Assembly: GCA_016200915.1 (NCBI GenBank)
Contig: JACQDV010000003.1
Span: forward strand, 1-64,000
From: Sphingobacteriales bacterium
GTDB lineage: Bacteria; Bacteroidota; Bacteroidia; Chitinophagales; Chitinophagaceae
Length of the DNA stretch: 64,000 nucleotides
Direction: 5' to 3'
Part shown: piece by piece, positions 5,999 through 43,500 of the stretch
Layout: each line of letters starts with the position of its first letter
How positions within the stretch are numbered: position 1 is the stretch's first letter
Notes under the pieces: model-generated
Databases searched by the model: none
Seen by the model: the letters and a program-made list of their open reading frames with translations, nothing else
What the model was told of the DNA's origin: nothing
Position numbers and translations under genes: made by a program

Positions 5999-7990
5999 TT
6001 ATTTAGATGGAGCTGGTGCAGGTTCAGGATTTGTTTTTCCGGTACTGAATGTGATAGGCACATTAGAACCAGCGGCACTTACCCGGATATAACCCTGCAT
6101 TTCCTGGTGCAGCGCAGAGCAGAAGTCTGTACAATACATTGGATATACCCCTGGCTTTTCTGGTTTCCATGACAGTGTTTGTGTTTCACCGGGCATAATG
6201 AGTAATTCAGCATTGTTGGCGCCTTTTACAGCAAAGCCATGCGGAACGTCCCAATCCTGTTCAAGATTAGTTACATGGAAGTAAACCACATCACCCATTT
6301 TTACCCCTTCAATATTATCAGGAGTAAAGTGTGAACGGATGGCTGTCATATACACATGCACTTCATTTCCTTTACGTTCTACTCTTGCGTTTTTATCACC
6401 AATAGTAGCATAAGGATTGGCATTCTCTTCGATCTTGTAGATTTTCTGGGAATTCTTCATTATTAAATCAGCAGGAATGGCTTCTGCATAGTGCGGTTCA
6501 CCAATAGTGGGGAAGTCAAGAATCAGTTTCATTTTATCGCCACTGATGTCGTATAACTGTGCACTTTGAGCCAATTCCGGGCCTGTGGGCAGGTAACGGT
6601 CCTTAGTGATTTTATTATAAGCAATCAAATATTTGCCCCATGGTTTTTTAGTAGGCCCACCCGGAACACTTAAGTGACCAACAGAATAATAAGTAGGCAC
6701 CCTGTCCAGTACTTTCAGGTCTTTTATATTCCATTTTACTACTTCAGATGAAACAAAGAAAGAAGTATAGGCATTACCGTTGGCATCAAATTCTGTATGC
6801 AAAGGGCCAAGACCTGGTTTTTGCACCTCACCATGTAATACGGCATCATATTTCAATACAGGGATACCTTCATAATCGCCATCAAAATTTTTGCTGGCAA
6901 TAGCCTGTTGAATTTTAGTAAAAGAGAAAACAGGAATTACAGCAGCGAGTTTACCGCTACCAACAATGTATTCACCAGTAGGATCAGTATCACAACCATG
7001 AGGAGATTTAGGACAAGGCATAAAGTAAACCATATCCGGACAATCTTTTGGATCAAGCACAGTTACTTCATTCTCTATTGTAGAAGAAGCCATATGTTTT
7101 TTCTCATCGTACAGGTTGTGTGCATATTTTACAGATTGTTTTTGTCCTTTACCGGCAGCTAAATATTCTTCCGCTTTCTTCCAGTTAACACAAAGAATAA
7201 AGTCTTTGTCTTTTTGAGAAGCATTTACTTCTAATAAAGTGTTTGCTCTTTCGGAGTTATAACAACTGAAGAACATCCATCCGTGAGATTTTCCTTTACC
7301 GGCTCTTGCTAAGTCAAAGTTTACGCCGGGTAATAAAATCTGGAAATTAATTTTCATGCCACCTGTATTTTTATCAACAGCGATAAAGCTTACGGTGCCA
7401 CGGAAATTTTGTTTGTAAGTGTTAATGGGTACATCATCGTTACTGTTATCCATCGGTATGCTAAATCTTGTTCCGGCTACTACATATTCTGAATTTTCAG
7501 TAATAAAAGGAGAGGAGTGGTTACCGGCACTATTGGGTATTTCGATGATTTCAGCAGTGCGGAATGTTTTCAGGTCAACACGGGCAATACGTGGAGTGTT
7601 ATTACCATTACCAAACACCCAGCGTCCGTCCTGTACCCCATCTGTTTCTGATAATGCAATGTGATGCAGGTCATCCCAGGGAACAAAACCATGAGAAGTG
7701 TTAAGCATTGCTTTTGTTTCTTCACTGTATCCATATCCTTTTTCAGGGTCAACAGAAAATACAGGGATTACACGGAACAATCTTCCCGAAGGTATGCCAT
7801 ACACACTCATTTGTCCGCTAAAACCACCGGAAACAAAATCGTAAAATTCGTCGTACTTACCCGGAGCTACATACGTTTTCTGTGCAGCATCGCCGCTTAC
7901 AGCCGATTCAACTCCTTTGGGTTTACATGCCGGGGCTAAAAAGCTTATTATTATAATAGCCAGCAGCAGTTTGGAGAAAGCATGTTTCAT
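5999..7990 (-). CDS. nosZ: Nitrous oxide reductase, clade II (Sec-dependent)
   Basis: NosZ reduces N2O to N2 in the periplasm as the last step of denitrification. The 663 residues start with a Sec-type or lipoprotein-like signal (ending APACKP near residue 22) and not a twin-arginine signal, which marks clade II. A seven-bladed propeller domain carries the Cu_Z histidine motifs, including DDLHHIALSETDG near 103 and SPHGCDTDPTGEY in the middle. The C-terminal cupredoxin domain has the Cu_A motif with Cys620, Cys624 and His628 in CTDFCSALH, and an upstream His in VPHGFAVKG. The downstream nosL-D-F-Y genes supply the maturation functions and the upstream cytochrome c a likely electron donor. Confidence 0.96.
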   Translation of the reverse strand: MKHAFSKLLLAIIIISFLAPACKPKGVESAVSGDAAQKTYVAPGKYDEFYDFVSGGFSGQMSVYGIPSGRLFRVIPVFSVDPEKGYGYSEETKAMLNTSHGFVPWDDLHHIALSETDGVQDGRWVFGNGNNTPRIARVDLKTFRTAEIIEIPNSAGNHSSPFITENSEYVVAGTRFSIPMDNSNDDVPINTYKQNFRGTVSFIAVDKNTGGMKINFQILLPGVNFDLARAGKGKSHGWMFFSCYNSERANTLLEVNASQKDKDFILCVNWKKAEEYLAAGKGQKQSVKYAHNLYDEKKHMASSTIENEVTVLDPKDCPDMVYFMPCPKSPHGCDTDPTGEYIVGSGKLAAVIPVFSFTKIQQAIASKNFDGDYEGIPVLKYDAVLHGEVQKPGLGPLHTEFDANGNAYTSFFVSSEVVKWNIKDLKVLDRVPTYYSVGHLSVPGGPTKKPWGKYLIAYNKITKDRYLPTGPELAQSAQLYDISGDKMKLILDFPTIGEPHYAEAIPADLIMKNSQKIYKIEENANPYATIGDKNARVERKGNEVHVYMTAIRSHFTPDNIEGVKMGDVVYFHVTNLEQDWDVPHGFAVKGANNAELLIMPGETQTLSWKPEKPGVYPMYCTDFCSALHQEMQGYIRVSAAGSNVPITFSTGKTNPEPAPAPSK

Positions 7991-28471: not shown

Positions 28472-31400
28472 ATGCATAAATTTTCCGGGTATTTTTTATG
28501 GTGCGTTCTCATTTCTTCCTGCAGGCAATCAAACGATGCAACAAAAGAAGCCATGCCTGCTTTGTATGAAGATGCCGTTACATATAGACTGGATACGATA
28601 AAAGGTTACGGCATGAATCCACTAACCGGTGATTCCATCAAACCTTTGGTCAATTCAAATGGAGATACCATTGTTACAGGAATTCCATTTCCCATTAAAA
28701 GTCAGCAGAAGAAATCGCCGGGGTTAAAAAATTTTTCTGTTCATAAAGAAGAAACAGAACATAGTGTTGTTATTGAAAACATTTCACATCCATTATATGG
28801 ACAGCCTGAAAAAAAAGCGGCAAAGGCTGAAGTGCTCAGTGCTGTTAAATTATCTGCTGATAAAGATTCTGTCATTCTGCCCGGCTCTTATTATATTCTG
28901 GTTACTAAAAAAAAGCTGGAGGTAACCATTAAGAAAACACCTGTACATGAGCCCCGACCGGTAAAAATACAACCGATGTGGTATAAGGATAATGCGCTGA
29001 TAGATATTCAATATCTTGACATAGGTCAGGGTTTGCAATATTCATACATCAACTCTATTTGCCAGGATAAAAACGGTTATATATGGATTGCTTCTGATTA
29101 CGGTCTTAGTAAATACGATGGTACTTACCTTACTACCTATACGGAAAAAGAAGGGCTGCCAGATAAAATAATAACTCATATAACAACTGATGATCAGAAC
29201 AGGTTATGGATATCAACCATTAAAGGAGTTTGTGTATTTGATGGAAATAGTTTTTTACAATTTAGCGATAATGAAAAACTGCTCTCTTCCTTTTCCGGGA
29301 GGATAATAAAAGACAGCAAGGGTAAAATGTGGGTTGAGCTTGAAGGGAAAGGATTGCTTTGTGTTGAGGGCAAAAAATTTACGATATATAATTCCTATAA
29401 TAATTTTCAGGAAGTGGTATCTCCGGATAAGGTGATAGATGAAAATGGTTTTTTATGGTTTAATACTCCCGGCGGTATTATAAATTATAACAACAACCGA
29501 TACAGTTATTTTAACCCCGGCTCACATATACTTGAAAGAATAACAGCTGTAAGAGAAGATAAAAAAGGTAATGCATGGTTCATCTCCTATAATTATGGTG
29601 TCACCAAATTTGACGGGAGTTATTTTACACATTACGAAAAGAAAAATGGTTTATCGGATAATGCCATTATATCATTAACGGTTGATAAGATGGATAATGT
29701 TTGGATTGGAACCCGTTACAACGGACTTAATAAATTTGATGGGAGCACCTTCACTATCTATACAAAAGAACAGGGCTTATCTGAAAATAAAATTATTTGT
29801 TCCATGCATGATGGTCAGGGAAATATCTGGATTGGAACTGCTGGCGGTGGCATTAATAAGCTAAATGAAAATGGATTTACAGAAATTATTCCATTAACCG
29901 AATTTAAAAACAGCCGTATACGGCCCATTATTAAAGACAAAAGAGGAGACTTGTGGTTTGGCACAGAAGCGTCTGAATTATATTCATTTGATGGTTCAAA
30001 ATTGACAAAGCACCTGGAAAGAAATATTAATAATATACAGGGATTCCGTTCGGCAATTATGGATAAGGATAATAATCTCTGGTTCGGTAAACATGAGGGT
30101 GGTGGAATATATAAATATGACTATAAACAGCTTTGTTACTATTCTACTGAAAATATTGAGTCATCTATGCTTTCGTTGTTTGAAGACAATAACCGCACCA
30201 TGTGGATGGGTACGTCACTTGACGGGGCAGGGGCTTTTAATGGAAGCATAATAAATTACTACAATGAAGCATTTGGTTTTTCAGGTAACAGGGTATTTGT
30301 AGTAAGACAGGATAAAAAAAATAATTTATGGTTTGGAACAGAAGAGGGGGGATTGGTGAAGTATGATGGAAAAATGTTTACGGTATTTTCTGAAAAGCAG
30401 GGATTATTTGCTAAAAGTATTACTTCTATAACCGAAGATGAAAAAGGGAACTTGTGGTTAGGTACACTAGATGCAGGATTGTGTAAGTTTGATACCCGCC
30501 TGAAGGACTCAACCGGACAGGGCAGTAGCTTTACTTACTATGGTGAAAAACAGGGGCTGGCTTTTAATGCTGTATGGTCGTTAAAAGAAGACGCTAATGG
30601 TCAGATATGGGTGGGCACTGATAATGGTCTTTCTGTTTTAGTTCCTCAAAAAGATTCAGCCGGCGGTAACAATAAAAGTTACAAGGTTTACAGTTTTGGT
30701 TTGCAGGATGGATTAAAGGCAACGGATTTTAATTTGAACGGGGTTTGTATTGATAATGATAACCGCATCTGGTGGGGAACCGGCAAGGCTTTAATCACCC
30801 GTGACCTTAATACATCTTTTAATACGTATAAGCCTTATTCGTTAAACATTAAGCGTATTGAAATAAATGATGCGTTCTGCGATTTCAAGAACCTTTCAGC
30901 ATCCCTAAAAAATAAAATCCGCTTTGACAGTGTGGCGGCTTATCAAAACTATCCTGCACAGTTATCATTGCCGTATAACTTCAACCATCTTACGTTTCAT
31001 TTTGCCGCTATCGAATGGCAGTCTCCGCATAAAATAAAATACAGTTACCGCTTAATTGGTTCAGATAATAAATGGAGCAACCCATCTTCACAAACCACTG
31101 CTGATTTCAGGAACCTTTCTTATGGCGCCTATGAATTGCAGGTAAAAGCCATTGGCGAATCAAATGAGTGGACGGATGCATTTACGTATAAGTTTTCCAT
31201 CCGCCCCGCCTGGTGGCAAACCTGGTGGTTTAAAATAATTGCCTTCTTATTATCTGTGTTTACCCTGTTTTTGATTACCCGGTTTATTTACCTCCTCCGC
31301 TTACGAAAACAAAAGGCACAGCTCGAAAAACAATTAGCGGTTCAGTTAGAACGGCAACGTATATCAGCCGAAATGCATGATGATATTGGTGCCGGTTTAT

Positions 31401-31945
31401 CGGGTGTGCGGTTGCTTACGGAACTCACCAAAAATAAAATCAAAGATGAAAGGGCTTCTGGTGATATGGAGAAAATATATCAATCCGTGGGTGATATTTC
31501 CGCCCGGATGAAAGAAGTGATATGGAGCCTCAATGCAGAGAATGATAACCTTGATAACCTTATTCATTTTTTGGTGAAACAGGTAAAAGCGCAATTAGAA
31601 CATTATCCTGCCGAAGTAAAAATAAATATCCCTGCATCTGTTCCCGTTATATCTGTGAGTGGTGAAGCAAGAAGAAATATTTATCTCGCAGTAAAAGAAG
31701 CTGTAAATAATATCATTAAACATTCAGGTACTGCTAAAGTGGAGTTAGAAATTACTTGTGATGAGCAGTTAAAAATTTCCATTGCTGATAATGGCAAAGG
31801 TGTAAACCCGGATAGTATAAATGATGCCGGTAATGGATTAAAAAATATGCGGCAACGGATGAAAACACTGGGGGGAAAAATGGAAATAAAAAATACGAAT
31901 GGGTTTATAATAACATTTGAAATTCCCTTAACAAAAGAAATATGA
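28472..31945 (+). CDS. Two-component sensor kinase with periplasmic propeller (HisKA_3 type)
   Basis: The 1157 residues start with a lipoprotein-like signal (ISSC, Cys17). Residues about 175-790 are a string of Reg_prop repeats with the pattern GNIWIGT-GGGINKL forming a periplasmic propeller. A Y_Y_Y domain (about 830-910) and one membrane segment (about 918-940) follow. The cytoplasmic part has a NarL-type H-box, RISAEMHDDIGAGLSG with His969, and an HATPase domain ending NGLKNMRQRMKTLGG. It should sense an external, possibly glycan, signal and phosphorylate the response regulator whose gene overlaps its end by 4 nt. There is no receiver domain. Confidence 0.92.
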   Translation: MHKFSGYFLWCVLISSCRQSNDATKEAMPALYEDAVTYRLDTIKGYGMNPLTGDSIKPLVNSNGDTIVTGIPFPIKSQQKKSPGLKNFSVHKEETEHSVVIENISHPLYGQPEKKAAKAEVLSAVKLSADKDSVILPGSYYILVTKKKLEVTIKKTPVHEPRPVKIQPMWYKDNALIDIQYLDIGQGLQYSYINSICQDKNGYIWIASDYGLSKYDGTYLTTYTEKEGLPDKIITHITTDDQNRLWISTIKGVCVFDGNSFLQFSDNEKLLSSFSGRIIKDSKGKMWVELEGKGLLCVEGKKFTIYNSYNNFQEVVSPDKVIDENGFLWFNTPGGIINYNNNRYSYFNPGSHILERITAVREDKKGNAWFISYNYGVTKFDGSYFTHYEKKNGLSDNAIISLTVDKMDNVWIGTRYNGLNKFDGSTFTIYTKEQGLSENKIICSMHDGQGNIWIGTAGGGINKLNENGFTEIIPLTEFKNSRIRPIIKDKRGDLWFGTEASELYSFDGSKLTKHLERNINNIQGFRSAIMDKDNNLWFGKHEGGGIYKYDYKQLCYYSTENIESSMLSLFEDNNRTMWMGTSLDGAGAFNGSIINYYNEAFGFSGNRVFVVRQDKKNNLWFGTEEGGLVKYDGKMFTVFSEKQGLFAKSITSITEDEKGNLWLGTLDAGLCKFDTRLKDSTGQGSSFTYYGEKQGLAFNAVWSLKEDANGQIWVGTDNGLSVLVPQKDSAGGNNKSYKVYSFGLQDGLKATDFNLNGVCIDNDNRIWWGTGKALITRDLNTSFNTYKPYSLNIKRIEINDAFCDFKNLSASLKNKIRFDSVAAYQNYPAQLSLPYNFNHLTFHFAAIEWQSPHKIKYSYRLIGSDNKWSNPSSQTTADFRNLSYGAYELQVKAIGESNEWTDAFTYKFSIRPAWWQTWWFKIIAFLLSVFTLFLITRFIYLLRLRKQKAQLEKQLAVQLERQRISAEMHDDIGAGLSGVRLLTELTKNKIKDERASGDMEKIYQSVGDISARMKEVIWSLNAENDNLDNLIHFLVKQVKAQLEHYPAEVKINIPASVPVISVSGEARRNIYLAVKEAVNNIIKHSGTAKVELEITCDEQLKISIADNGKGVNPDSINDAGNGLKNMRQRMKTLGGKMEIKNTNGFIITFEIPLTKEI

Positions 31946-32565
31946 TAAGTATTGCTGTAATTGAAGACAACGCAGAATTCAGGCAGGCATTAGAAACAAT
32001 TATTAAAAGCGAAAACGATTTTATGTTAACCGCATCTTTTGACAGTGCGGAAAAAGCCTTGCCTTCTATACAGGCTAAACCAGTTGATATTGTAATTACA
32101 GACATTAGCCTGCCCGGCATGCGGGGTGTTGAACTGATAGTTCAGTTAAAACAAAAATTACCACAAACACAGTTTATGGTTTGCACGATACATGATGATG
32201 ATGAAACAGTGTTTGAAGCGTTGAAATGCGGCGCATCAGGTTACCTGGTTAAAGAACCCATTACTGTGGAAGAAATTGTAAAAGCCATCCGTGATTTATA
32301 CAATGGCGGTTCGCCGATGAGTCCTTTTATTGCAAGAAAAGTTATCAGCAGTTTTCAAAAATCAATAGTTACCGATGAAAACTCTTTATTAAGCAGCCGG
32401 GAAAAAGAAGTGCTGGAATTACTGTCAAAAGGTTTGCTGTATAAAGAAATTGCAGAACGGCTCGGTGTAACACACGAAACGGTAAAAAAACACCTCAAGA
32501 ATATTTATCAGAAACTGCATGTACAGAACAAGATTGAAGCTATCAATAAATTTAAACTCCTATAG
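31942..32565 (+). CDS. NarL/LuxR-type response regulator
   Basis: The 207 residues have a receiver domain (1-120) with the phosphorylatable Asp54 in VITDISLPG and the acidic pair Glu8-Asp9, and a C-terminal LuxR/GerE helix-turn-helix (143-207) with SREKEVLELLSKG and THETVKKHLKNIYQKL. The ATG overlaps the kinase stop as ATGA, so the two are translationally coupled. Its stop is followed, after exactly 3 nt, by a GAAA-tetraloop hairpin that is repeated three more times downstream. Confidence 0.93.
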   Translation: MISIAVIEDNAEFRQALETIIKSENDFMLTASFDSAEKALPSIQAKPVDIVITDISLPGMRGVELIVQLKQKLPQTQFMVCTIHDDDETVFEALKCGASGYLVKEPITVEEIVKAIRDLYNGGSPMSPFIARKVISSFQKSIVTDENSLLSSREKEVLELLSKGLLYKEIAERLGVTHETVKKHLKNIYQKLHVQNKIEAINKFKLL

Positions 32566-32568
32566 TGC

Positions 32569-32586
32569 ATTCCCCGAAAGGGGAAT
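32569..32586 (+). terminator. GAAA-tetraloop hairpin, copy 1
   Basis: ATTCCCC-GAAA-GGGGAAT, 3 nt after the response regulator stop codon and followed by TGTTTTTT. This looks like an intrinsic terminator or attenuator. The identical hairpin recurs at 32846, 37064 and 37341. Confidence 0.75.
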
Positions 32587-32644
32587 TGTTTTTTAAAATG
32601 TACCACTCCATTTTTACAGGCTTTTTATAACCCGTTACACTTTA

Positions 32645-32842
32645 ATGAAAGAATCTGTTCATCCGCTTACCGAAAGAGAGAAGGAAGTAATGCAGTTACT
32701 GGCCCTGGGTTTAACGTATGAAAAAATAGCGATACAGATGGAAGTAAGCCATCAGACCATAAAGATGCATTTGAAAAATATTTACAGTAAACTGCATGTG
32801 CAGAATAAGATTGAAGCATTGCAAAAAGTAAAACTTATTTGA
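32645..32842 (+). CDS. Solo LuxR-type helix-turn-helix protein, 65 aa
   Basis: The whole protein is one GerE/LuxR DNA-binding domain, LTEREKEVMQLLALGLTYEKIA and VSHQTIKMHLKNIYSKLHVQNK, with no receiver or sensor part. It closely resembles the C-terminal 65 residues of the response regulator upstream, and even more the solo protein at 37140-37337. It probably arose by duplication of the HTH end plus its hairpin. It may compete for, or cooperate at, the same sites; that is inference. The secreted LRR-lipase gene starts 187 bp later. Confidence 0.85.
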   Translation: MKESVHPLTEREKEVMQLLALGLTYEKIAIQMEVSHQTIKMHLKNIYSKLHVQNKIEALQKVKLI

Positions 32843-32845
32843 TGT

Positions 32846-32863
32846 ATTCCCCGAAAGGGGAAT
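32846..32863 (+). terminator. GAAA-tetraloop hairpin, copy 2
   Basis: Identical ATTCCCC-GAAA-GGGGAAT, again exactly 3 nt after the stop of the solo HTH gene, followed by TGTTTGCG. The T-run is shorter than in copy 1. Confidence 0.7.
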
Positions 32864-33029
32864 TGTTTGCGCTGAAAAATAAATATATTTTTAATTCAAC
32901 CTTTATTAGGGCTATTTCCTTTATAAAACCCAATCATTTACTGTTTAATACCGCCTTTTTTCGGTTAACTATTTTCAATTTGCTTATTTTAATAACACAT
33001 TTATTAATAATAACACTAAAGTTTATTTC

Positions 33030-36000
33030 ATGAAAAATTATTCTATATACAAGTTTATTATTCCAAAAAAATGTTTCTTTTCCTGGGTAATTACAATAAC
33101 TCTCTTGCTTTCTGGTTCTTTAAATTTAAATGCCCAGTTTTGGGTTAGGACACAGGATTCGTTAGAGCTTGTTAAATTTTTTTATGCTACAGGTGGGCCT
33201 AATTGGACAAATAAAACAGGATGGTTACAAGGGCCAGCAAGAACCTGGTATGGTGTTGGAGTGGGGATTTTAAATAATGTCCATACGATTAGTTTGCCGA
33301 ACAATAATCTAACCGGTCAAATTCCAGACCTAAAGATGGATTTTGGTCTTCAAACTTTAGACCTTACCAATAATAAGTTAACTGGTAATATACCAGACTT
33401 TACTGGCGGTGATGCTCTTGGGGGTATAACATACCTTTATTTAGATTCAAACCAGCTTAGCGGGATTCCAAATTTTACAGGAAAGAGGTATGAGAAAATA
33501 AAAATTCAATATAATAAGTTATCCGGGAACCTGCCTGCATTTTCACTTCCAAACCTAACTGATTTGATGTTAAAATCAAATCAGTTAACCGGACTTAGCA
33601 ATCTCAATTGCCCTGCCCTCACTTATATTGACCTTGATTCAAATAAACTTACCGGCAGTTTACCAAATTTTAACCTTCCCAGTTTAAGGAGTTTACAAAT
33701 TAACGCCAATCAACTAACCGGTAGCATACCACCTTTAAACCTGCCTGAATTAACAGGATTGGGTTTAAAATCAAACAAACTAACTGGCAGCATTCCGTAT
33801 TTAAATCTTCCCAAGAGCATCTCTATCGATTTCTCAAACAATCAATTATCAGGTGGCATTGCACAGGTAAATCTTAATAGTATGGTTGGCTTAAACCTTA
33901 CTAATAACCGGCTCAATTTTGACAGTATGGAATATATTTATTCCCGCTATTTCAGTGTATTTTTTTATCCGCAGGCCAATATTAAAATTAACAGTAAAAA
34001 TAATTTGTTATCTGTTAATGCAGGAGGCACCTTATCTAAAAACACATATGTATGGTTTCAAAAACAACCTGACAGTTCATCTTTTAAAGGGTTTAAACAA
34101 GCGGTGGGCGACTCTACTTTAAATAACCCACCGCCCGGCAGTTATTATGCAATGGTTACTAATTCGGCTTCGCCTTTGTTAATTTTATTTAGTGATACGG
34201 TGAGCATTGGTCTTCAACTTAAGCTCAGTAACCCCAACTCTTCTATGATTAATCCCGATGGCTCACTTGATTCTAATTTAGCGTTATTAGATTTTAGCAG
34301 ACCTGTGCTTGGAGCCGTTACTGACGGCGTCACTAAAATATTATTAGTGGCTGAAACATTAGATTCATTAAAATTTTCCATTGCTAACTCCAAAGACGGT
34401 TGGTTGAGTAAACTTACTGACCAATATAATCTGCAGGGCAACCTGATTGTTAAACCGAGAAATGGAAAAGTAGTTGCAGTATATACCGTTCCGGATGGTT
34501 ATGGCATAAACAACCCCCGTGGAGGAAGGTCTATAACGGTTAATGTGTACAATGCAAAAGATCAAACCCTGCTGCAGAATGTAACTATTAAACTTAAAAC
34601 TCCCCCGGTTGTGTTAGTGCATGGGATGTGGTCAAGACCTGAAGCATGGGTAGAGGGAGGATTTGAAGATAAGTTGATAAACGAAAAATTTGGGTTACCC
34701 TACCTGGTAAATTATGAAAAAGATAATTTCCGGACTTTTAATCCTGATTCATCGGAAAGTAAAGTGGTTACAGATGCTATAATGGACCAAATAACTTTTG
34801 CTTTAAACGCATCCAATTATGATGGGTATTTAGCAACACAGGTAGATGTAGTTGGCCATAGCTTAGGAGGGTTAATGACAAGAAGCCTTTCGCAAAAAGA
34901 TGGGTTCACCCGCAGGGAAAATTATAAAAAAGGGTTTATTCATAAATTAATAACCCTGGGAACACCACACAGAGGTTCACCATTTGGCCCCGAGTTATAT
35001 AATAGCAGAGACTTACCTGTAAAAATCTTAGGCTTAAACGCCGGAAAACTTTCTGATATTTTTGCCGGCCATAATATGCGTATTGGAAATGTGCATAAAG
35101 ACTTTGGCAATCAGTCTGCAGGTATAAAAGCTTTAAAACAAACATTGCCCTTTAAAACATTTGCAATAACGGCCAATTATAAAGGAGATGGTATTTTGCC
35201 CGGTCAAATAAAAGGATATATAGCATTAAATGCATTAATTAAAGTTGTTCTTGGTAAATCATTGGATGAAGTAATGTATCCAAATACTTCCTGCCCCCAG
35301 GTTCCTTTGGAACATGATTTAATTGTACCATTAAGCAGTCAAAAAGGTTATATAAGTAAGGATACCATATTTTATAATACGGGTCACTCAGGTCCGGCAA
35401 ATATTACTGAAACAAACAGCCCGGAAGTTCAGGATAAAGTAGTACGATTATTATTGTCTGATGATACAACAGCTTTTGACAGAGGATTCCCCGCACCATC
35501 CAGTTTTCCATTAGATTGTAATACAGCAAATCAAAGAACAACGCAAAACGTCATTAATAATACATTAAGACAAGCTGATTTAAATGGGGACCAGGCTATC
35601 AAAATCAGTTCTCCGGTAAGAGGAACGGTTTATTCTAATAATAGTGGAGCTAACATTACATTGTCAATTGATGTTTCAGGTGGAGCCGTGGTAAAGGATG
35701 CCATTTTAATGATTAAAGAACTGGGATGGTTTTCATTATCTCCAACACCGCCTTACTCAGTAAGTTTTACTTTACCTCCGTATGCACCAGTTGGTAAAAT
35801 AAATTTACTTGTGCTGGCAAGGGATACATCGGGTTTACTTTTGGCCGACACCTCCCATATAGTATTAACGCCTACACAGCAATTTCTTGGATTAAGAGTA
35901 GAACCTCAAAGCATAAAATTAGATTCCTCAATTCGTTCAATTTCGCTTTTTGTTGAAGGATATTATTATTCAAGTGCCGGAGGAGTTCACCGTTACAATA

Positions 36001-36893
36001 TGGCGGATATCAGTACAGGTACCACATACTCCAATCAAAAAAATAATACCATATTTAAAGTTGACCAAACAGGAGTAGTATCTGCTGTAAGCCCGGGAAC
36101 AGATACGCTGATAGTGAAGAATGGTACTGAACTTATAAAAGTACCAGTGGTGGTTGATAATAATTTTTCTGCCGCTAAATTTTTTAATAATATTATTGAT
36201 TTCCCTGCTATTGCTAATAAAACTATTGGAGATAATCCAATTGTTTTATCAGCCAGTGCATCTTCCGGCGATGCAATTACGTTTTCGCTGGTATCTGGCC
36301 CCGCTGTAATTAATAATCATATAGTCAGTTTTACAGGTACAGGTAAAGTAACTGTTAAAGCATCCCAGGCAGGTAATGTATATTTTTCCGCGGCAACGGA
36401 TGTAAGTCAAACATTTTGTGTAAAGCCAGTAAAACCATTTATTACTCAAAGTGGAAATAAACTATTTTCAAGTGTACTTTCAGGGAATCAATGGTACTTA
36501 AACAATGTTCCTGTTATTGGGGCTACAGATTCGGTATTTATCCCGTCCATTTCCGGCAACTATGCATTGGATGTTACGCAAAATACATGCACCAGCAATC
36601 GGTCAGAATCCATTGCTTACGTTGTTACAGCTATAAATAACATCGTCAATGATAAGCGGGTTAACATTCTCCCTAACCCGGTACACAACAAAATGTATGT
36701 GATAAATGGTATAACAGAAAAAACATTGTCAATAATTATTTATGACATTACCGGGAAAGTGATTTATAAACAGAATGGATTCAGGAATAATTTAGAAATA
36801 GATTTCAGTCAGTATGCGAATTCAACTTATTTGATTGATATAAAAGATGCGAAAATGAATTTAATCCTGCGTAAAATTATTATTAAACAGTAA
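33030..36893 (+). CDS. Giant secreted leucine-rich-repeat / lipase-like protein with T9SS sorting domain
   Basis: The 1287 residues start with a signal peptide (to about residue 35). A plant-type leucine-rich-repeat region (about 85-310) has the pattern LTGSIP-LNLP-LTGL. An alpha/beta-hydrolase domain (about 520-770) has VVLVHGMW near 526 as oxyanion region and the nucleophile elbow VVGHSLGG with Ser611. Ig-like stretches (about 860-1190) and a C-terminal type IX sorting domain (about 1210-1287, with ILPNPVHNKMYV) follow. It should be exported across the outer membrane by the T9SS and held at the surface or released. The substrate of the esterase/lipase part is unknown. Confidence 0.88.
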   Translation: MKNYSIYKFIIPKKCFFSWVITITLLLSGSLNLNAQFWVRTQDSLELVKFFYATGGPNWTNKTGWLQGPARTWYGVGVGILNNVHTISLPNNNLTGQIPDLKMDFGLQTLDLTNNKLTGNIPDFTGGDALGGITYLYLDSNQLSGIPNFTGKRYEKIKIQYNKLSGNLPAFSLPNLTDLMLKSNQLTGLSNLNCPALTYIDLDSNKLTGSLPNFNLPSLRSLQINANQLTGSIPPLNLPELTGLGLKSNKLTGSIPYLNLPKSISIDFSNNQLSGGIAQVNLNSMVGLNLTNNRLNFDSMEYIYSRYFSVFFYPQANIKINSKNNLLSVNAGGTLSKNTYVWFQKQPDSSSFKGFKQAVGDSTLNNPPPGSYYAMVTNSASPLLILFSDTVSIGLQLKLSNPNSSMINPDGSLDSNLALLDFSRPVLGAVTDGVTKILLVAETLDSLKFSIANSKDGWLSKLTDQYNLQGNLIVKPRNGKVVAVYTVPDGYGINNPRGGRSITVNVYNAKDQTLLQNVTIKLKTPPVVLVHGMWSRPEAWVEGGFEDKLINEKFGLPYLVNYEKDNFRTFNPDSSESKVVTDAIMDQITFALNASNYDGYLATQVDVVGHSLGGLMTRSLSQKDGFTRRENYKKGFIHKLITLGTPHRGSPFGPELYNSRDLPVKILGLNAGKLSDIFAGHNMRIGNVHKDFGNQSAGIKALKQTLPFKTFAITANYKGDGILPGQIKGYIALNALIKVVLGKSLDEVMYPNTSCPQVPLEHDLIVPLSSQKGYISKDTIFYNTGHSGPANITETNSPEVQDKVVRLLLSDDTTAFDRGFPAPSSFPLDCNTANQRTTQNVINNTLRQADLNGDQAIKISSPVRGTVYSNNSGANITLSIDVSGGAVVKDAILMIKELGWFSLSPTPPYSVSFTLPPYAPVGKINLLVLARDTSGLLLADTSHIVLTPTQQFLGLRVEPQSIKLDSSIRSISLFVEGYYYSSAGGVHRYNMADISTGTTYSNQKNNTIFKVDQTGVVSAVSPGTDTLIVKNGTELIKVPVVVDNNFSAAKFFNNIIDFPAIANKTIGDNPIVLSASASSGDAITFSLVSGPAVINNHIVSFTGTGKVTVKASQAGNVYFSAATDVSQTFCVKPVKPFITQSGNKLFSSVLSGNQWYLNNVPVIGATDSVFIPSISGNYALDVTQNTCTSNRSESIAYVVTAINNIVNDKRVNILPNPVHNKMYVINGITEKTLSIIIYDITGKVIYKQNGFRNNLEIDFSQYANSTYLIDIKDAKMNLILRKIIIKQ

Positions 36894-36979
36894 AGAAGGA
36901 ATTAAAGTCAATTATCCATTTACATTAGGTTAATTTGTTAAAAGATAGCCATACACATAAATATGAGTCAATAAACAAT

Positions 36980-37060
36980 AAAAAACATCTCAAGAATATT
37001 TACCAGAAACTGCATGTACAGAATAAGATTGAAGCATTAAATAAATTTAAACTGCTCTAG
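36980..37060 (+). pseudogene. Remnant of a response regulator C-terminus
   Basis: In frame these 27 codons read KKHLKNIYQKLHVQNKIEAL then NKFKLL and stop, nearly the same as the last residues of the response regulator ending at 32565. No start codon or domain precedes them. The remnant, its hairpin and the following solo HTH gene copy the order found at 32485-32863, so this is the scar of a segmental duplication. Confidence 0.85.
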
Positions 37061-37063
37061 TAC

Positions 37064-37081
37064 ATTCCCCGAAAGGGGAAT
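37064..37081 (+). terminator. GAAA-tetraloop hairpin, copy 3
   Basis: ATTCCCC-GAAA-GGGGAAT, 3 nt after the stop of the regulator remnant, followed by TGTTTTTT. It is kept intact although the gene before it is only a fragment. Confidence 0.75.
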
Positions 37082-37139
37082 TGTTTTTTAAGATAAGTGC
37101 ATACATTTTTACACTGTTTTTTAACCCGTCAAATTTTTA

Positions 37140-37337
37140 ATGAAAGAATCTATTCATTTACTCACAGATAGGGAAAAGGAAGTAATACAATTATTGGCCC
37201 TGGGCTTAACCTACGAAAAGATAGCCATGCAAATGGATGTAAGCCATCAAACCGTAAAGATGCATCTTAAAAATATTTACCGTAAGCTCAATGTCCAGAA
37301 CAAGATTGAAGCCCTGCAAAAAGTAAAACTAATATAG
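37140..37337 (+). CDS. Solo LuxR-type helix-turn-helix protein, 65 aa, second copy
   Basis: Nearly identical to the protein at 32645-32842, differing at about nine residues, mostly conservative, with the same length and ends. The HTH core VSHQTVKMHLKNIYRKLNVQNK is intact. It stands 79 nt after the truncated regulator remnant and 199 nt before the second giant secreted protein, mirroring the arrangement of the first copy. Function is probably transcriptional control of the neighbouring giant gene; inference. Confidence 0.85.
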   Translation: MKESIHLLTDREKEVIQLLALGLTYEKIAMQMDVSHQTVKMHLKNIYRKLNVQNKIEALQKVKLI

Positions 37338-37340
37338 CCT

Positions 37341-37358
37341 ATTCCCCGAAAGGGGAAT
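37341..37358 (+). terminator. GAAA-tetraloop hairpin, copy 4
   Basis: ATTCCCC-GAAA-GGGGAAT, 3 nt after the stop of the second solo HTH gene, followed by TGTTTCC. Confidence 0.7.
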
Positions 37359-37536
37359 TGTTTCCTCATAAATTTTATTTCATTTTTACAGCATTGAATA
37401 AAAAGGATGTTTTTCCCTTTTATTTTCCCGCCATTTTCCTGTTGAATACCATCTGACTTATTAATTACTTGCCGTTTTATTAATACCAACTATACCTGTA
37501 AGTCATCAGCACATTTATCATTCCAAAACCTGTAAA

Positions 37537-40500
37537 ATGAAGAAATTACTTTCATTCCTTGTTGTAATGGTTATTACTGTTACGCTTTTTGCCCAAACAA
37601 CTTATTATGTAAATGATAACAGCACATCAGGTGATGTGTTCACTTCCGCAATTGGTAACAACTCTAATGCCGGGACAGCCGCAGCTCCATTTGCCACCTT
37701 GCAATATGCAGTTAATGCAGTAGCAGAAGGTGATATTATTAATGTAGATGCTGGCACATATATAGGACAGGTAACAATAAATAAAGGGTTAACTATAATT
37801 GGTGCAGGACAAAACCTGACATTTATTACAAATGCTGCTCAGCTTATTGCACCAGCAGGGTCATTTGCTGAATATGCTTTAATTCAAACAACACAAGGTA
37901 TAGGTGATGTACATATCAGGGATCTCACAGCCACTAACGGTACAAATGGTGACGGGCACACGATCATGATACAAAGTGGGGGCAGTGTAAAGAATTGTAC
38001 CTTATTAAATGGCGGTCAGGGAATTTTCTTTCGTATTGAATCTGCAATTAAAACTGCGTTGATGGAAAATAATACTATTCAACCTACGGGCATTGGTATT
38101 AACTGCGAGGGATCAGGATTAACTGCCCTTATCCGGAATAACACAATTACAAAAAGTACAGAATTTTATTCTGGTATTTTTGCCGGTCTGGATTTTGGAC
38201 CGCTGCCATCATTAACTGTTACAAACAATATCATTAATAATTATGCTTCTTATGGTATAGGCATTTTAGCTGCCAGCTTTAATGGTACAATCAATTACAA
38301 CAGCCTTACGGGAGCAGGCATTGCCATTAACAGAAATGGTAACGGAGGCAATACATTATCGGCAACTTGCAATTGGTTTGGTTCTTCAAATGCCGGAACG
38401 GTTGTTTCAAAAATAAGCGGAACGATTAACTATACCCCTTTTCTTACCGATGGAACAGATGCCAGCAGCAATGTTGGTTTTCAGCCAGCCGGCGCATGTG
38501 GAACCGGCAATACCTATTATGTAAATGATAACAATCTTAGCGGAAATATCTTCACAACGGCTGTTGGCAATAATGCCAATGCAGGAACAGCATCAGCCCC
38601 TTTTGCTACTATACAATATGCAGTAGACATTGCAGCCGCCAATGATGTTATTTATGTGGATGCAGGCACCTATACTGAGCAGGTAACCACTACAAAAGGA
38701 ATAACTATTATTGGTGCCGGACAAAATCTAACTTCAATTCTGAAGCCGGCAATAACAGTAGCACCGCCCGGCTCATTTACAGAACAGGGTGTAATTCAAA
38801 CAGCACAAAATATTGGTGATGTGAACATCAAAGATCTGTCTGTAACCGGTGATTATAATGTGGGTGTAACACCTATCATCATACAAAGCAGTGGTAGCGT
38901 TCGAAACTGTAAGTTGCAAAGTGGTAACCAGGGATTGTTTATAAGAATTGATGCTGCAACCAACCCGGGTTCAAAAATATTTTTAATTGAAGGCAATATT
39001 ATTGAGGCCGAGTATATAGCTGTTAATGTAGAAGGTACTGCTTTAAATGCAACTTTAAATAATAATACGCTGAGGGCTTTTAACGGATTTTCCGTAGGTG
39101 TCTTTGCAGGAATGGATTTTGGCCCTATTGGACGGATAACAGCAACCAATAATTTATTCAACTCATACCTCACATCAGGTATATGGGTAAATGCATCTAA
39201 TGCAAGCATTACACAAAATGCATTTACTGGCACAGGATCGTCTGCAATTAACCGAACAGGTGGAGCTAATGTTACTGCTAACTGTAACTGGTATGGCGCA
39301 GCTAATGCTTCTTCAATTGTACCAAAGGTCAATGCCGGAGTAAATTATTTTCCATGGTATGTTGATGGAACAGATCAAAGCCCGGTAGCAGGATTTCAAC
39401 ATACTTCAGAATCATGCGGCTCCGGGGGCAATGTGCTATATGTAAATGATAATAGTACAAGTGGTGACATCTTTACAACTACAACAGGTAATGATGCGAA
39501 TGCAGGTACATCACCTACCTCGCCATTGGCAACAATTGATGCAGCGCTTACAAAGGCATCAGCCGGTACATCTATTTATGTAGACGCAGGAACTTACTCA
39601 CAGAGTCTCGTTATCGGCAAACAGGTTCAGATAATTGGAACAAATTATAGCATATCACCCAATAGCTCAGCTGATCCTTTAGTACTAAATCCTTCACGTA
39701 ATGCGGAATCAATAATTGAAAATTCAAGTTGGACGATTGGCGCTGATGGCATAAGCCTTACGGGTTTAACGTTTAATCCATTAAGCAATAATGCAGTTGT
39801 ACTTAACGGTAATTCATTTGGAAATATTAATATGAACAGAAACAGAGTGAGATTGAGTAATTTGTTCCCTGCATTCATCTTTAACGGTGCCGGTACCAGT
39901 GCAATAACTTTTTCAGGAATTACCAACTGGGGACTAACTGTTTCAGAAAACAGGTTTGAGAAAGAAGATGCATCTTCCGGTACTTCAATGCGAGTAAACC
40001 GATTTGGCAATGTGAATATTTATAACAATTCATTTGTAGTAACAGGTGCCACTGCGAGAACACAAACATGTATGAATACAGGATCAGCTGGCCTTGTACC
40101 TTATTTATTCATCAACAATAACACATTTGATAAGGCATCAACAGCGATAAACTCAGGCAACCTGGCTTATACCTATATAACAAATAATAAATTCATCAAT
40201 ACCAATACAGCGCTTATTGGCAATAATCTTTCTACTGAATCATCTGATGTTTTCTTCCAGAACAATACGCTGGATGGTAGCGGTGGTATTGTTCCCTTTG
40301 TACAATACACACGCCAGGCAGGTGATGCTGTGGGAGCTTCTTCTTCTTTTACAGCAGAAAATAATACAGTTAGTGGGACGGCAGTTGCCGGTACTACAAC
40401 ATTGCTGGGAAGTATGAATTTAATTTTTGCAAACAGTGTATTAAATCAGTCATTAACCGTTCGCAATAATAAGATCAGCTATAACGGAGACCTCAGTACA

Positions 40501-43500
40501 GTGGAAGGTCAATTTATAAGACCTATAATGATAAGAGGTAATTTGAAAAACTCAGTGGTTGAAAAAAATGAAATTACTTTAAGCGGTACTAACCTGCAAC
40601 CAAGAAACCCGGCAAATATTTTACCGGTATGTCCTGCTATTACTTTATATACAGAGAATGGGTCGGCCGCCTTTTTACAACCAGGTTCTGTAATTAATAT
40701 TCTGAATAATAAAGTAAACGGATTCAAACATTCCTTTGTGGCGTTTGATGCCGGCACAGGTACGGGTGCTAATGATGCATATACTGGTTTTGGCAATATT
40801 CCAGCAGGAGTTACTGTAAACGTCAACAATAATAGTTTTACAGGTGATTCTATATCCATCAATAATGGCACAGTGGGTCAGCCAGTACTGGCTACTTGTA
40901 ACTGGTATGGTTCTGCTGATGCGGCAGTAGTTATTCCAAAGATCAGTGGTATTGCAACTTATGGTTCCTGGTTAACTAACGGAACAGATAATAATATTGC
41001 CACAGGTTTTCAACCAGTATCAAATACTTGTAATGGCCGGCAGAATAAATTTTATGTAAATGATGGTAGCCAGACGGATGATGTATTTACTACGGCGGTT
41101 GGTAATGATGCCAACAGCGGTGTTCCTTCTTCACCTTTATTAACTATTAATGCTGCTCTTACAAAAGCATCAGCCGGTGATACAATTTATGTGGATGCCG
41201 GAACATATGCAAATGCGGATATTACTATTGGAAAATCCATTACACTATTGGGTACAAATTATCTCACCAATCCTAATGATGGTACAAATCCATTAAATGC
41301 TGCAGGAAGAACTGCTGAAGCGAACATAAGCAATACCATCTGGACAATTGGCTTCAGCGACATCAGGATAAAAGGATTTACGTTTGACCCGCAAAGTAAA
41401 ACAGCATTGGCTCAATCCAATAACACACTGGATTTTGATAATATAGAAGTTTCTAATAACATCTTCCTTGTTAAAAGTGTAGCGATCCCCGTTAGTTTAA
41501 TTGGCAAACAACAACTGCCTTTAGTAACATTCAATTATTCAATCACCAATAACAGGTTTGTAAAATCAGTTGGGGGTAATGGTTCCAATATATCTATGGC
41601 AGGTATTGATGGAATTCTTATTTCAGGTAACACATTTACAACTACTGGCGGTGTGGCAGATTGGACACAAAATGCTTATACTGGCTTTGGTGGTTTCAGA
41701 AACAATAATTTTGTTATCTCAAACAATACAGCTTACCGTCCACGATTTGCTTTTCAAGGGTTAAATGCTGTTAAAGCCCAGGTTAGTTTAAATAAAATAA
41801 CAGAAGCGGTAAGATTTCAACTTGACTTTAATGGCATCAACGTTCCCACTGAAATTAATATCACAGATAATAATGTTACGATTGCTAATTCGAATGGAGC
41901 CCCTGCTCTTAGTTATAGTAAATCAAACGGCACAGACCTGAGTAGTCCTAATATTGCCCGTATTGAGAGAAATAATTTTACAGTGGATGGAACCGGATGG
42001 TCATTAGTGCCGCAGGCATTGATAGCGCCTACTATTGATAATTTATCAGCTAATACACAGGTGTTCATCAGGGATAATAAGTTGAATATAACCGGCAACT
42101 TTAGTACACAGTCTGATCCGGGCAATTATGTATCTGCTATTCGTTTTCTTAACAACAGCAGACAGGTAGTAGTTGAAAGAAATGAAATGCAGTTCAGTGC
42201 AACTAACTATGGCACTTCAAACAAGTTTGGTATTGGTATTTTATATGCAGGATTACAACCCGGTACTAGTTTTGATTTTCTAAATAATAAATTTTCAGGA
42301 TTCTCAACTTCAATCGGTGTCCAAAATAATGGGAATAATAATAATTATGGCGAATTGCCTGCGGGTGTTATACTCAACATTAATAACAACAGCTTTACAG
42401 GTGATGTAACGAGTATTAACAACGGCACAACAGGACAATCTGCCACTGCATCCTGCAACTGGTATGGTTCTGCTGCAGCACAAAACTTTATTAGTAAACT
42501 CACCTTGCCAACAGTAGATCCAGTTCCCTGGTTAACTAACGGAACAGACAATGATGTGGCAACAGGATTTCAACAGGTGCCGGGCAGTTGTGATGGTTAT
42601 CCAACTTTAATAACACTGGATAGTTATACCAATGTAACCTGCAATGGCGCAGCAAACGGAACCATTAATATTACTACTACTAATGGTAAAGCGCCATTCA
42701 TTTATACATGGACAAAAGACGGCGATGCCAACTTTATTTCGCATGATGAAGACCCAACCGGTTTGGCGCCGGGTGTTTATCATTTAGCTATGGTGGATGG
42801 CAATGGTTCAAATATTTACATTACTGCTGTTGATGCGAATGGGCCGGGCACTATTGTTGTAACCATTACAGAGCCGCCTGTATTAACAGCCTCTGCTACC
42901 GGCACAAACAATAATTGCTTTGGTCAAACCACTGGTACTGCAACAGTATCTGTAAGTGGTGGAACTTCTTCTTATACTTATTTATGGAGTAATGGCGCAA
43001 CTACACAAAGCATCAGCAATCTTAGTGCAGCAATTTATTCAGTAATTGTTACCGATGCCAATGGTTGTACTGCCACTACTTCGTATGAAGTAACAGAGCC
43101 ACCTGCTCTTTCTGCATCTGCTACAGGAAGCAATGTAAACTGCAATGGTGGAAGCGATGGTTCAGCTTCTGTATCTGTGAGTGGCGGTACTTCTTCTTAT
43201 ACTTATTTATGGAGTAATGGCGCTACCACTCAAAGCATCAGTAATCTTAGTGCAGCAATTTACTCTGTTACGGTTACCGATGCTAATGGATGTACAGCAA
43301 CTTCTTCTTATGAAGTAACACAACCACCTGTTCTCTCAGCATCTGCAACCGGCACTAATGTAAGCTGCAATAGTGGAAGCGATGGTTCAGCTTCTGTATC
43401 TGTAAGTGGCGGTACTTCTTCTTATACTTATTTATGGAGTAATGGCGCTACCACTCAAAGCATCAGTAATCTTGCAGCAGCAACATATAATGTTACAGTA

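Follow-up and report, generated by a model that had tools for sequence, protein, structure and literature searches.

Four identical 18-nt palindromes in the 64,000-nucleotide stretch of DNA analysed here (the window) each follow the end of a LuxR-type helix-turn-helix (HTH) coding region, and the question is what they do there. The original prediction took them for hairpins that might act as an attenuator, a protein-binding site or a recombination site. Judging from sequence comparison, we propose that the repeated palindrome is most likely the DNA docking site of a response regulator (RR) and its two solo copies, and not an RNA hairpin.

The arrangement as predicted was confirmed in its coordinates. 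The exact 18-mer ATTCCCCGAAAGGGGAAT occurs on the forward strand at 32569, 32846, 37064 and 37341 (chance expectation 0.05 matches, with at most 3 mismatches allowed), and a scan of the whole genome (4,500,519 bases) gave zero exact copies beyond these four; all copies thus lie at this locus rather than after many unrelated genes. Every copy starts 3 nt past the stop that closes a LuxR-type HTH end, namely that of the RR (31942-32565), solo1 (32645-32842), a remnant of the RR end (to 37060) and solo2 (37140-37337). The features of the locus are as follows.

28472..31945, +: sensor histidine kinase, 1157 aa, with Reg_prop propeller, Y_Y_Y, HisKA_3 and HATPase_c (Pfam scan)
31942..32565, +: NarL-type RR, 207 aa, receiver plus GerE HTH (Pfam); predicted operator binder
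32569..32586, +: candidate operator 1, followed by TTG-N20-CATTTTTAC; predicted solo1 promoter, +1 near 32621
32609..32617, +: -7-like box of promoter 1, CATTTTTAC
32645..32842, +: solo HTH 1, 65 aa, GerE/LuxR HTH (PF00196; Pfam)
32846..32863, +: candidate operator 2; predicted promoter of secreted protein 33030-36893
32886-32894, +: -7-like box of promoter 2, TATTTTTAA
33030..36893, +: secreted protein 1, 1287 aa, with LRR, PGAP1/esterase-like domain and Por_Secre_tail (Pfam)
36980..37060, +: 26 in-frame C-terminal codons left over from the RR 3' end, the remaining HTH being absent (remnant; alignment)
37064..37081, +: candidate operator 3, followed by TTG-N20-CATTTTTAC; predicted solo2 promoter
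37104..37112, +: -7-like box of promoter 3
37140..37337, +: solo HTH 2, 65 aa, GerE/LuxR HTH (PF00196; Pfam)
37341..37358, +: candidate operator 4, followed by TTG-N20-CATTTTTAC; predicted promoter of giant protein 37537-45603
37381..37389, +: -7-like box of promoter 4
37537..45603, +: giant secreted protein 2, 2688 aa, with beta-helix/DUF1565 region and 9 SprB repeat stretches

Both domains of the RR (PF00072 and PF00196) score above the Pfam cut-off and its best match among solved structures is NarL (1a04, E 3.5e-26); the gene for the HisKA_3/HATPase_c kinase lies immediately upstream. Among solved structures, the solo is best matched by the DNA-binding domains of NarL (1je8, 8u3b), and the HTHs of the RR and both solos are alike. 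Each solo is followed by a large secreted protein, as had been claimed: Por_Secre_tail is above cut-off in protein 1, on which the assignment as T9SS cargo (by C-terminal sorting domain) rests, and sub-threshold in protein 2 (24.7 vs 27 bits). Elsewhere, among 195 family genomes, protein 1 has part-length matches only.

The claimed segmental duplication of regulator end, palindrome and solo is borne out by the alignment of 32485-32868 with 36980-37363 (84% identity over 0.38 kb), each copy of which carries two palindromes. Over its 26 C-terminal codons the remnant differs from the RR by 1 amino acid and 6 synonymous codons. The left edge of the duplication falls within the RR gene and not at a palindrome, whereas detectable identity between the segments falls off shortly past the second palindrome; an alignment of the leader regions in front of both secreted genes scores 43 (shuffles: mean 26, maximum 47), so that these leaders may be homologous. 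The two solos have diverged to a dS of 1.31 (dN/dS ~0.05) and yet the 18-mer is unchanged, in line with the expectation that it is better conserved than its neighbours. Common to all four copies in the window is also a TTGTTT over and past the palindrome end.

For the comparison with other genomes we used 24 operator sites from 12 genomes. Twenty of these were located via the palindrome or by reading downstream of RR and solo genes, without using the promoter box; the other four (a pair in L159 and single ones in L161 and L189) were retrieved by a pattern containing the box, so that only the 20 sites give a free test of it. The palindrome is laid out as inverted half-sites TTCCCCN-AA-NGGGGAA (7-2-7), with the central AA in 22/24 sites, the left T[TA]CCC in 20/24 and the right GGG[AT]A in 21/24. 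A TTG stands at its end in all 24 sites; in 23 of them a -7-like box, NANNTTTR, comes at an offset of exactly 22 nt from that end (19/20 among the sites found without the box). The form YANNTTTR occupies offset 22 in 22/24 sites, and in 21 of the 22 aligned sites, where 2000 shuffle runs reach at most 4/22. Mean pairwise identity is 0.90 for the arms plus TG and 0.81 for the box, against 0.34 for the spacer. By contrast, the site may lie anywhere between 0 and 177 nt past the upstream stop (3-177 nt for RR stops). When 394 family genomes were searched with 25 spacings allowed, the gap between TTG and box was exactly 20 in 10 of 12 matches (9 of these 10 places were already known and used to shape the pattern, G403 being new), and the reversed-pattern control gave zero gap-20 matches in these genomes. 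Five genomes that hold close relatives of the RR gave six matches, from 4/5 genomes, all with a gap of 20; two of the six were new.

The survey of sites covered 14 of 80 RR loci, with L068-L078 read downstream of the RR and L079, L080 and L085 checked. Among the RR homologs that are at least 63% identical (L068-L078) a site follows the RR in 7/11; it is absent after the RR in L074-L076 (a search of the L074 and L075 genomes found none), and L079, L080 and L085 gave zero sites at a level of at least 10 of 14. All 10 solos, from nine genomes, are followed by an operator, and 9 are also preceded by one (absent in front of the G051 solo). When 13 genomes, picked because they have RR relatives or sites already known, were searched with the operator, a previously unseen solo HTH flanked by two operators turned up in the RR-bearing genome G676. 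Around one G550 site no regulator was seen in the 2.3-kb locus. The solo tree, from which the G029 solo was omitted, contains no single well-supported solo clade and places the Ferruginibacter solos elsewhere.

The box takes the form CANNTTTAC in 16/24 sites and TANNTTTG in 1/24. The usual box of the genome, TANNTTTGC, was found in 10 of 51 upstream regions (0.7 in shuffles) and CANNTTTAC in 0/51 ordinary upstream regions; this departure from the usual form leaves the sigma factor uncertain. In ordinary upstream regions the spacing from TTG to TANNTTTG shows no preference (at most 2 per spacing) and, for F. johnsoniae, a -33 motif is given as not identified (PMC7366714), so that the role of the TTG as -33 element is one that we infer. 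The operator centre is ~31 bp from the box and would lie at about -43.5 if the box is placed like the F. psychrophilum sigma-A box.

Taken together, the fixed geometry of TTG and box, the variable distance to the stop, the lack of compensatory changes, the broken stems and the patchy T-runs (see below) point to a DNA operator. The four promoters that bear it probably switch on the solos and the two large secreted proteins. In the mechanism that we propose, the kinase would phosphorylate the NarL-type RR, a dimer of which would sit on the operator and, placed much as in class II activation, recruit RNA polymerase, driving transcription of the solo HTH genes and of both secreted surface proteins. 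The solos, as copies of the RR DNA-binding domain without receiver that would be expressed from the same operator, would most likely occupy the same operators independently of phosphorylation, and thereby sustain or amplify their own expression and that of the adhesins. Binding, activation and feedback are all deduced from sequence here, and activation rather than repression, as well as the sign of the solo effect, is presumed. As a whole (promoter operator, activation by the RR, sustained or amplified expression through the solos) we hold this reading to be likely.

It might be argued, however, that the operator is real but that the receiver-less solos occupy it without activating, or that the RR represses, so that the adhesins come under negative feedback. 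The solo and adhesin promoters carry the same operator, and DegU and LiaR DNA-binding domains without receiver are described as binding less strongly than the full protein (PMC9263151); accordingly the solos could compete. In addition, NarL R178, reported to touch RNA polymerase alpha (its residue position was worked out here), is not conserved in these regulators. On the other hand, a site adjoining the -33 region together with an off-consensus -7 box would be more typical of activated promoters. Unphosphorylated NarL and VraR are moreover described as autoinhibited by the receiver (PMC9263151), and a copy without receiver would thus bind unhindered. Overall we regard such antagonism as possible but rather unlikely.

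Within the activating reading, a further and still more tentative suggestion, unlikely in our view, is that operator, solo HTH and operator form a portable self-activating module, which, after the two-component system has turned it on, keeps itself and the downstream secreted gene on. If true, such a module would be a heritable surface-state switch, and its duplication would let unrelated surface genes be captured, for instance the 33030-36893 protein.

Intrinsic termination of the regulator gene upstream is improbable as the main role of the palindrome, even though it lies directly past the stop codon and a terminator scan of the window (14 sites vs 4.0 in shuffles) picks up all four copies (the stem has all 7 pairs in copies 1, 3 and 4, and 5 pairs in copy 2). 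Folding lends support as well: copy 1 beats 200/200 shuffles and copies 2-4 reach z -1.8 to -2.4. The multi-genome comparison overrules both for terminator or attenuator as main role, given that the stem is intact in 14/24 sites and broken in 10/24, that a T-run (5 or more T among the 8 bases that come next) follows 13/24, and that among 22 distinct sites 0 pairs are altered on both sides. While the upstream stop moves, the arms, the TTG and the spacing to the -7 box stay constant, and the four copies per 4.5 Mb never have unrelated genes upstream, which likewise speaks against a terminator. Some copies may nonetheless terminate transcription as a side-role.

An RNA attenuator or leader structure controlling the downstream gene, as raised in the original prediction, is very improbable: the predicted hairpin is close to the start of the downstream transcription unit, but with a start past the -7 box it would fall outside that transcript, its stem bases vary without their partners and show no covariation, and T-runs are as patchy as stated above. 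A recombination site or mobile-element end behind the duplication, favoured by palindromes that flank the duplicated solo and by identity that ends shortly past the second one, is just as hard to maintain and was rejected on the genome-wide count (four copies, none elsewhere), the left edge away from the palindrome, and the same promoter position at loci of other genera that lack this duplication.

The palindrome is thus in all likelihood functional, and of the functions first suggested for it protein binding is the one that fits. The further idea of a system that spawns regulator/surface-protein pairs holds in so far as the duplication put a second secreted gene by a site of the same kind, but similar HTHs and one operator at four promoters suggest a single local regulon that gained a target more than they suggest separate pairs.

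The predicted operator most resembles NarL sites at the E. coli yeaR and ogt promoters. There, too, a NarL-family RR with GerE HTH recognizes inverted heptamers around 2 bp, at one site that lies directly ahead of the -35/-33 element and at near-equal distance to the -10/-7 box (PMC7419079 and PMC9314961). At ogt1052, an engineered promoter that is also highly active without nitrate, NarL is reported in the same papers to act from a 7-2-7 site located at -44.5, which puts it 32 bp ahead of the -10 element. Unlike in the NarL system, the half-site here is TTCCCCN, the promoter boxes are those of Bacteroidota, the regulon is local and made up of secreted proteins, and receiver-less solos are encoded between the operators. 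GerE of Bacillus (PDB 1fse, 74 residues) is likewise a short, stand-alone, GerE-only LuxR-type protein, but the solos resemble the HTH of the adjoining RR and sit beside it between its operators. They are not quorum-sensing LuxR solos, in that the autoinducer-binding N-terminal domain is absent and the 65-aa proteins match HTH/sigma region 4 models only (Pfam).

On the target side, the likeness is with SprB-type T9SS adhesins of gliding Bacteroidota. SprB repeats occur in 5/12 target proteins scanned (one a contig-cut fragment) and a T9SS C-terminal signal above the Pfam cut-off in 4/12; the G001 target, split into two frames, was left out. For the sprB operon of F. psychrophilum, control through sigma54 and SM5 sites is reported (PMC9723704), whereas a dedicated local RR and operator are predicted here. 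PorXY also represents two-component control tied to T9SS. Unlike the system here, PorX concerns the secretion machinery. PorX is not known to be a NarL-type regulator.

The analysis predicts operator, promoter and target genes for a Reg_prop/Y_Y_Y two-component system in uncultured Ferruginibacter/Chitinophagaceae relatives, and would tie this system to giant SprB-repeat surface proteins. It also offers a clear case of an RR plus receiver-less copies under one predicted operator, a possible route to amplified or bistable adhesin expression. Among the titles and abstracts searched, mostly outside the subscription literature, none describing this arrangement of RR, solo and operator was found.

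A few further matches were set apart from the 24 sites. Palindromes flanked by no TTG, left or right, in nine relatives (G008, G020, G037, G056, G084, G102, G114, G190 and G063) were judged unrelated by context. Two matches were put down to chance: the one in G264 (gap 27), where the frames read include no regulator, and the one in G494 (gap 17), which overlaps a long frame. A G242 match with a gap of 21 lies ~20 nt past the stop of a 148-aa LuxR-type HTH protein, with a gene shortly downstream, and may be a distant variant of the site.

The 18-nt palindrome ATTCCCCGAAAGGGGAAT, originally read as a hairpin, is present in the window in four exact copies on the + strand (0.05 matches would be expected with up to 3 mismatches), and no further copy was found in the whole 4.5-Mb genome. 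As the original prediction stated, all four copies start 3 nt past the stop codon of a LuxR-type HTH end. We refer to them as putative operators 1 to 4; the gene order is as follows.

28472-31945, sensor kinase, first in the gene order
31942-32565, NarL-type response regulator (RR)
32569 (start), + strand, operator 1, followed by solo HTH 1
32846 (start), + strand, operator 2
33030-36893, secreted protein 1
36980-37060, RR-end remnant
37064 (start), + strand, operator 3, followed by solo HTH 2
37341 (start), + strand, operator 4
37537-45603, secreted protein 2

The proposed segmental duplication also holds: 36980-37363 is a second copy of 32485-32868 at 84% identity. The RR-end remnant retains 26 in-frame RR codons with 6 synonymous differences and 1 non-synonymous difference from the RR, and such in-frame conservation is odd for a dead fragment.

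Every copy in the window ends in TTG, and 20 nt beyond it lies an A/T-rich box resembling a -7 element (CATTTTTAC in copies 1, 3 and 4; TATTTTTAA in copy 2). With up to 3 mismatches allowed, this composite pattern matches the own genome at these four sites only.

Across genomes we show, at the level of sequence, a fixed geometry between operator and putative box. The pattern CCCCNNNNGGGGNATTG-N{8,32}-YANNTTTRC gave 12 matches in 8 of 394 family genomes, with a gap (TTG-to-box distance) of exactly 20 in 10 of the 12, and zero matches in the same genomes when reversed as a control; nine of the ten gap-20 places had been seen before and had shaped the pattern, the new one being in genome G403. 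A similar pattern yielded six matches, all with gap 20 and two of them new, in four of five genomes with close RR relatives. At the level of the order (396 genomes, partly overlapping with the family set) there were seven matches, one with gap 17 and six with gap 20 (five already seen in G000 and G029, one in G550). We also scored the palindrome arms alone, within some 300 nt after each of 26 gene ends. In 22 rows no fewer than 11 of the 14 arm positions matched, which about 0.5% of shuffled stretches achieve as their best score. One row duplicated another site and was replaced, giving an alignment of 22 distinct sites. YANNTTTR stands at offset 22 (counted from the palindrome end) in 21 of these and nowhere else in the aligned columns, against a maximum of 4 of 22 in 2000 shuffles; after dropping spacers more than 60% alike the count is 18 of 19. 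Averaged over pairs of sites, identity reaches 0.90 in the arms with TG and 0.81 in the box, compared with 0.69 in the four-base centre and 0.34 in the spacer. Two later sites from G676 bring the set to 24 sites in 12 genomes, 22 with YANNTTTR and 23 with NANNTTTR at offset 22. Four of the 24 came from a box-containing pattern; the 20 found independently of the box give 18 and 19, respectively, the YANNTTTR exceptions being L073 and the first G676 site.

All 24 sites carry TTG, 14 have all seven stem pairs intact and 13 are followed by a T-run; among the 22 aligned sites no stem pair is altered on both sides, and the site begins anywhere from 3 to 177 nt after the RR stop codon. The position of the element is tied to the downstream promoter rather than to the upstream gene. 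A terminator scan nonetheless lists all four window copies (copy 2 with a shorter stem only), and a side-role of the palindrome as a terminator is therefore possible.

According to PMC9723704 the sigma-A -7 box of F. psychrophilum spans -12 to -5. If this placement holds here, the palindrome centre would lie near -43.5, with predicted starts near 32621, 32898, 37116 and 37393. NarL is described in PMC7419079 and PMC9314961 as working from 7-2-7 sites: in the engineered ogt1052 promoter the site is at -44.5, given as 32 bp before the -10 element, and in yeaR a single site immediately precedes -35. The former distance compares with about 31 bp from operator centre to box in the window. Several features do not fit this picture. 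The residue with which NarL contacts alpha is not conserved here. The box of the operator promoters (window 32609-32617, 37104-37112 and 37381-37389, and related sites elsewhere) is conserved but off-consensus, reading CANNTTTAC in 16 of 24 sites. Of 51 upstream regions in this genome, 10 contain its usual box, TANNTTTGC (shuffles: 0.7), and none contains CANNTTTAC; with relatives added the counts are 14 and 4 of 106, versus 1.1 and 1.8. Since a merely weak promoter would not need a conserved deviation, the off-consensus box possibly marks a special sigma factor, an extra protein contact or activator dependence. Ordinary upstream regions showed no preferred TTG-to-box spacing, and for F. johnsoniae PMC7366714 gives a -33 motif as not identified.

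The candidate binder is the RR. Homologs with at least 63% identity are found at 11 loci of the species-level collection, seven of which carry the site after the RR (L068, L069, L070, L071, L073, L077 and L078). Three without it, L074-L076, cluster in the HTH tree with support 89/88, below the starred level. Composite-operator matches with up to 3 mismatches occur in 9 of 13 genomes picked for RR relatives or known sites. At this threshold the genomes of L074, L075, L073 and G051 gave no match; the known sites of the latter two are more than 3 letters off the pattern. In G676, the genome of L072, the match lies on another contig, where an unlisted 59-aa solo HTH has an operator before it and a second one 6 nt after it; the operator search thus led to a solo gene missed by all protein searches. 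The protein downstream reads as having a signal peptide, with OMP_b-brl at E 0.009, below the cut-off. L072 is the fourth locus with no site after the RR; its contig ends about 290 nt past the RR in a frame read as a putative IS transposase start (6850-6916), which may explain why the operator-solo part is on another contig.

An operator lies 0-6 nt past the stop of ten solos in nine genomes (two in the window, one each in G001, G029, G127, G473, G474, G477, G051 and G676) and in front of all except that of G051. The helix T-[VI]-K-[KM]-H-L-K-N-[IV]-Y is common to 9 of 10 aligned HTHs, and the solo's best solved matches are NarL DNA-binding domains. With a dS of 1.31 and a dN of 0.07 between them, solos 1 and 2 both seem to be kept by selection, old as the copies are.

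Based on the operator geometry, the NarL site positions and the NarL matches of the solo, we propose that the kinase would phosphorylate the RR, which would bind the operator and drive transcription of solos and adhesins; binding and activation are both inferred. NarL and VraR are autoinhibited by their receiver (PMC9263151); the solos, which lack one, would then bind the same sites. We prefer amplification of expression by the solos to dampening, though the sequence would fit either. The parts are all of known kinds (NarL-type RR, 7-2-7 operator, T9SS cargo). Of their combination, with receiver-less regulator copies between the regulator's operators, ahead of giant surface proteins, no description was found in the literature listings searched.

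A domain scan of twelve proteins downstream of operators found SprB repeats in five (window 37537, G029, G474, G477 and a contig-cut fragment in G476) and a T9SS signal above the cut-off in four (Por_Secre_tail in window 33030, G029 and G474; CHU_C in G127); in three (G476, G051 and G371) a contig or locus end cuts off the C-terminus. Secreted protein 1 combines LRR, an esterase-like domain (PGAP1/DUF676) and Por_Secre_tail. Among 195 family genomes it has part-length matches only, in 7 other genomes, with no full-length relative, and G001 (81% complete) has no match; it therefore looks like a newcomer under a duplicated promoter. A small lipoprotein-like family without a Pfam match follows the operator in G473 (L159 2815-3549) and at L073 (6735-7442), in differing gene orders.

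Further observations concern single loci, the first two of which do not fit the proposed model. The G550 match (L163, C284:2462-2507) is an isolated composite site (gap 20) from a different family of the order, with no regulator in its 2.3-kb locus. G242 (L060, C12:859675-859721) has a gap-21 palindrome and box about 20 nt past a 148-aa LuxR-type HTH gene that belongs to another family; it may be a remote version of this design. Finally, the RR-to-operator interval of G001 (L021 4137-4290) contains an inverted repeat, AACCTCACAGGTCT ... AGACCTGTTAGGTTTT, and an apparent RR-end remnant with only weak short matches, which together may be what is left of a lost cassette.
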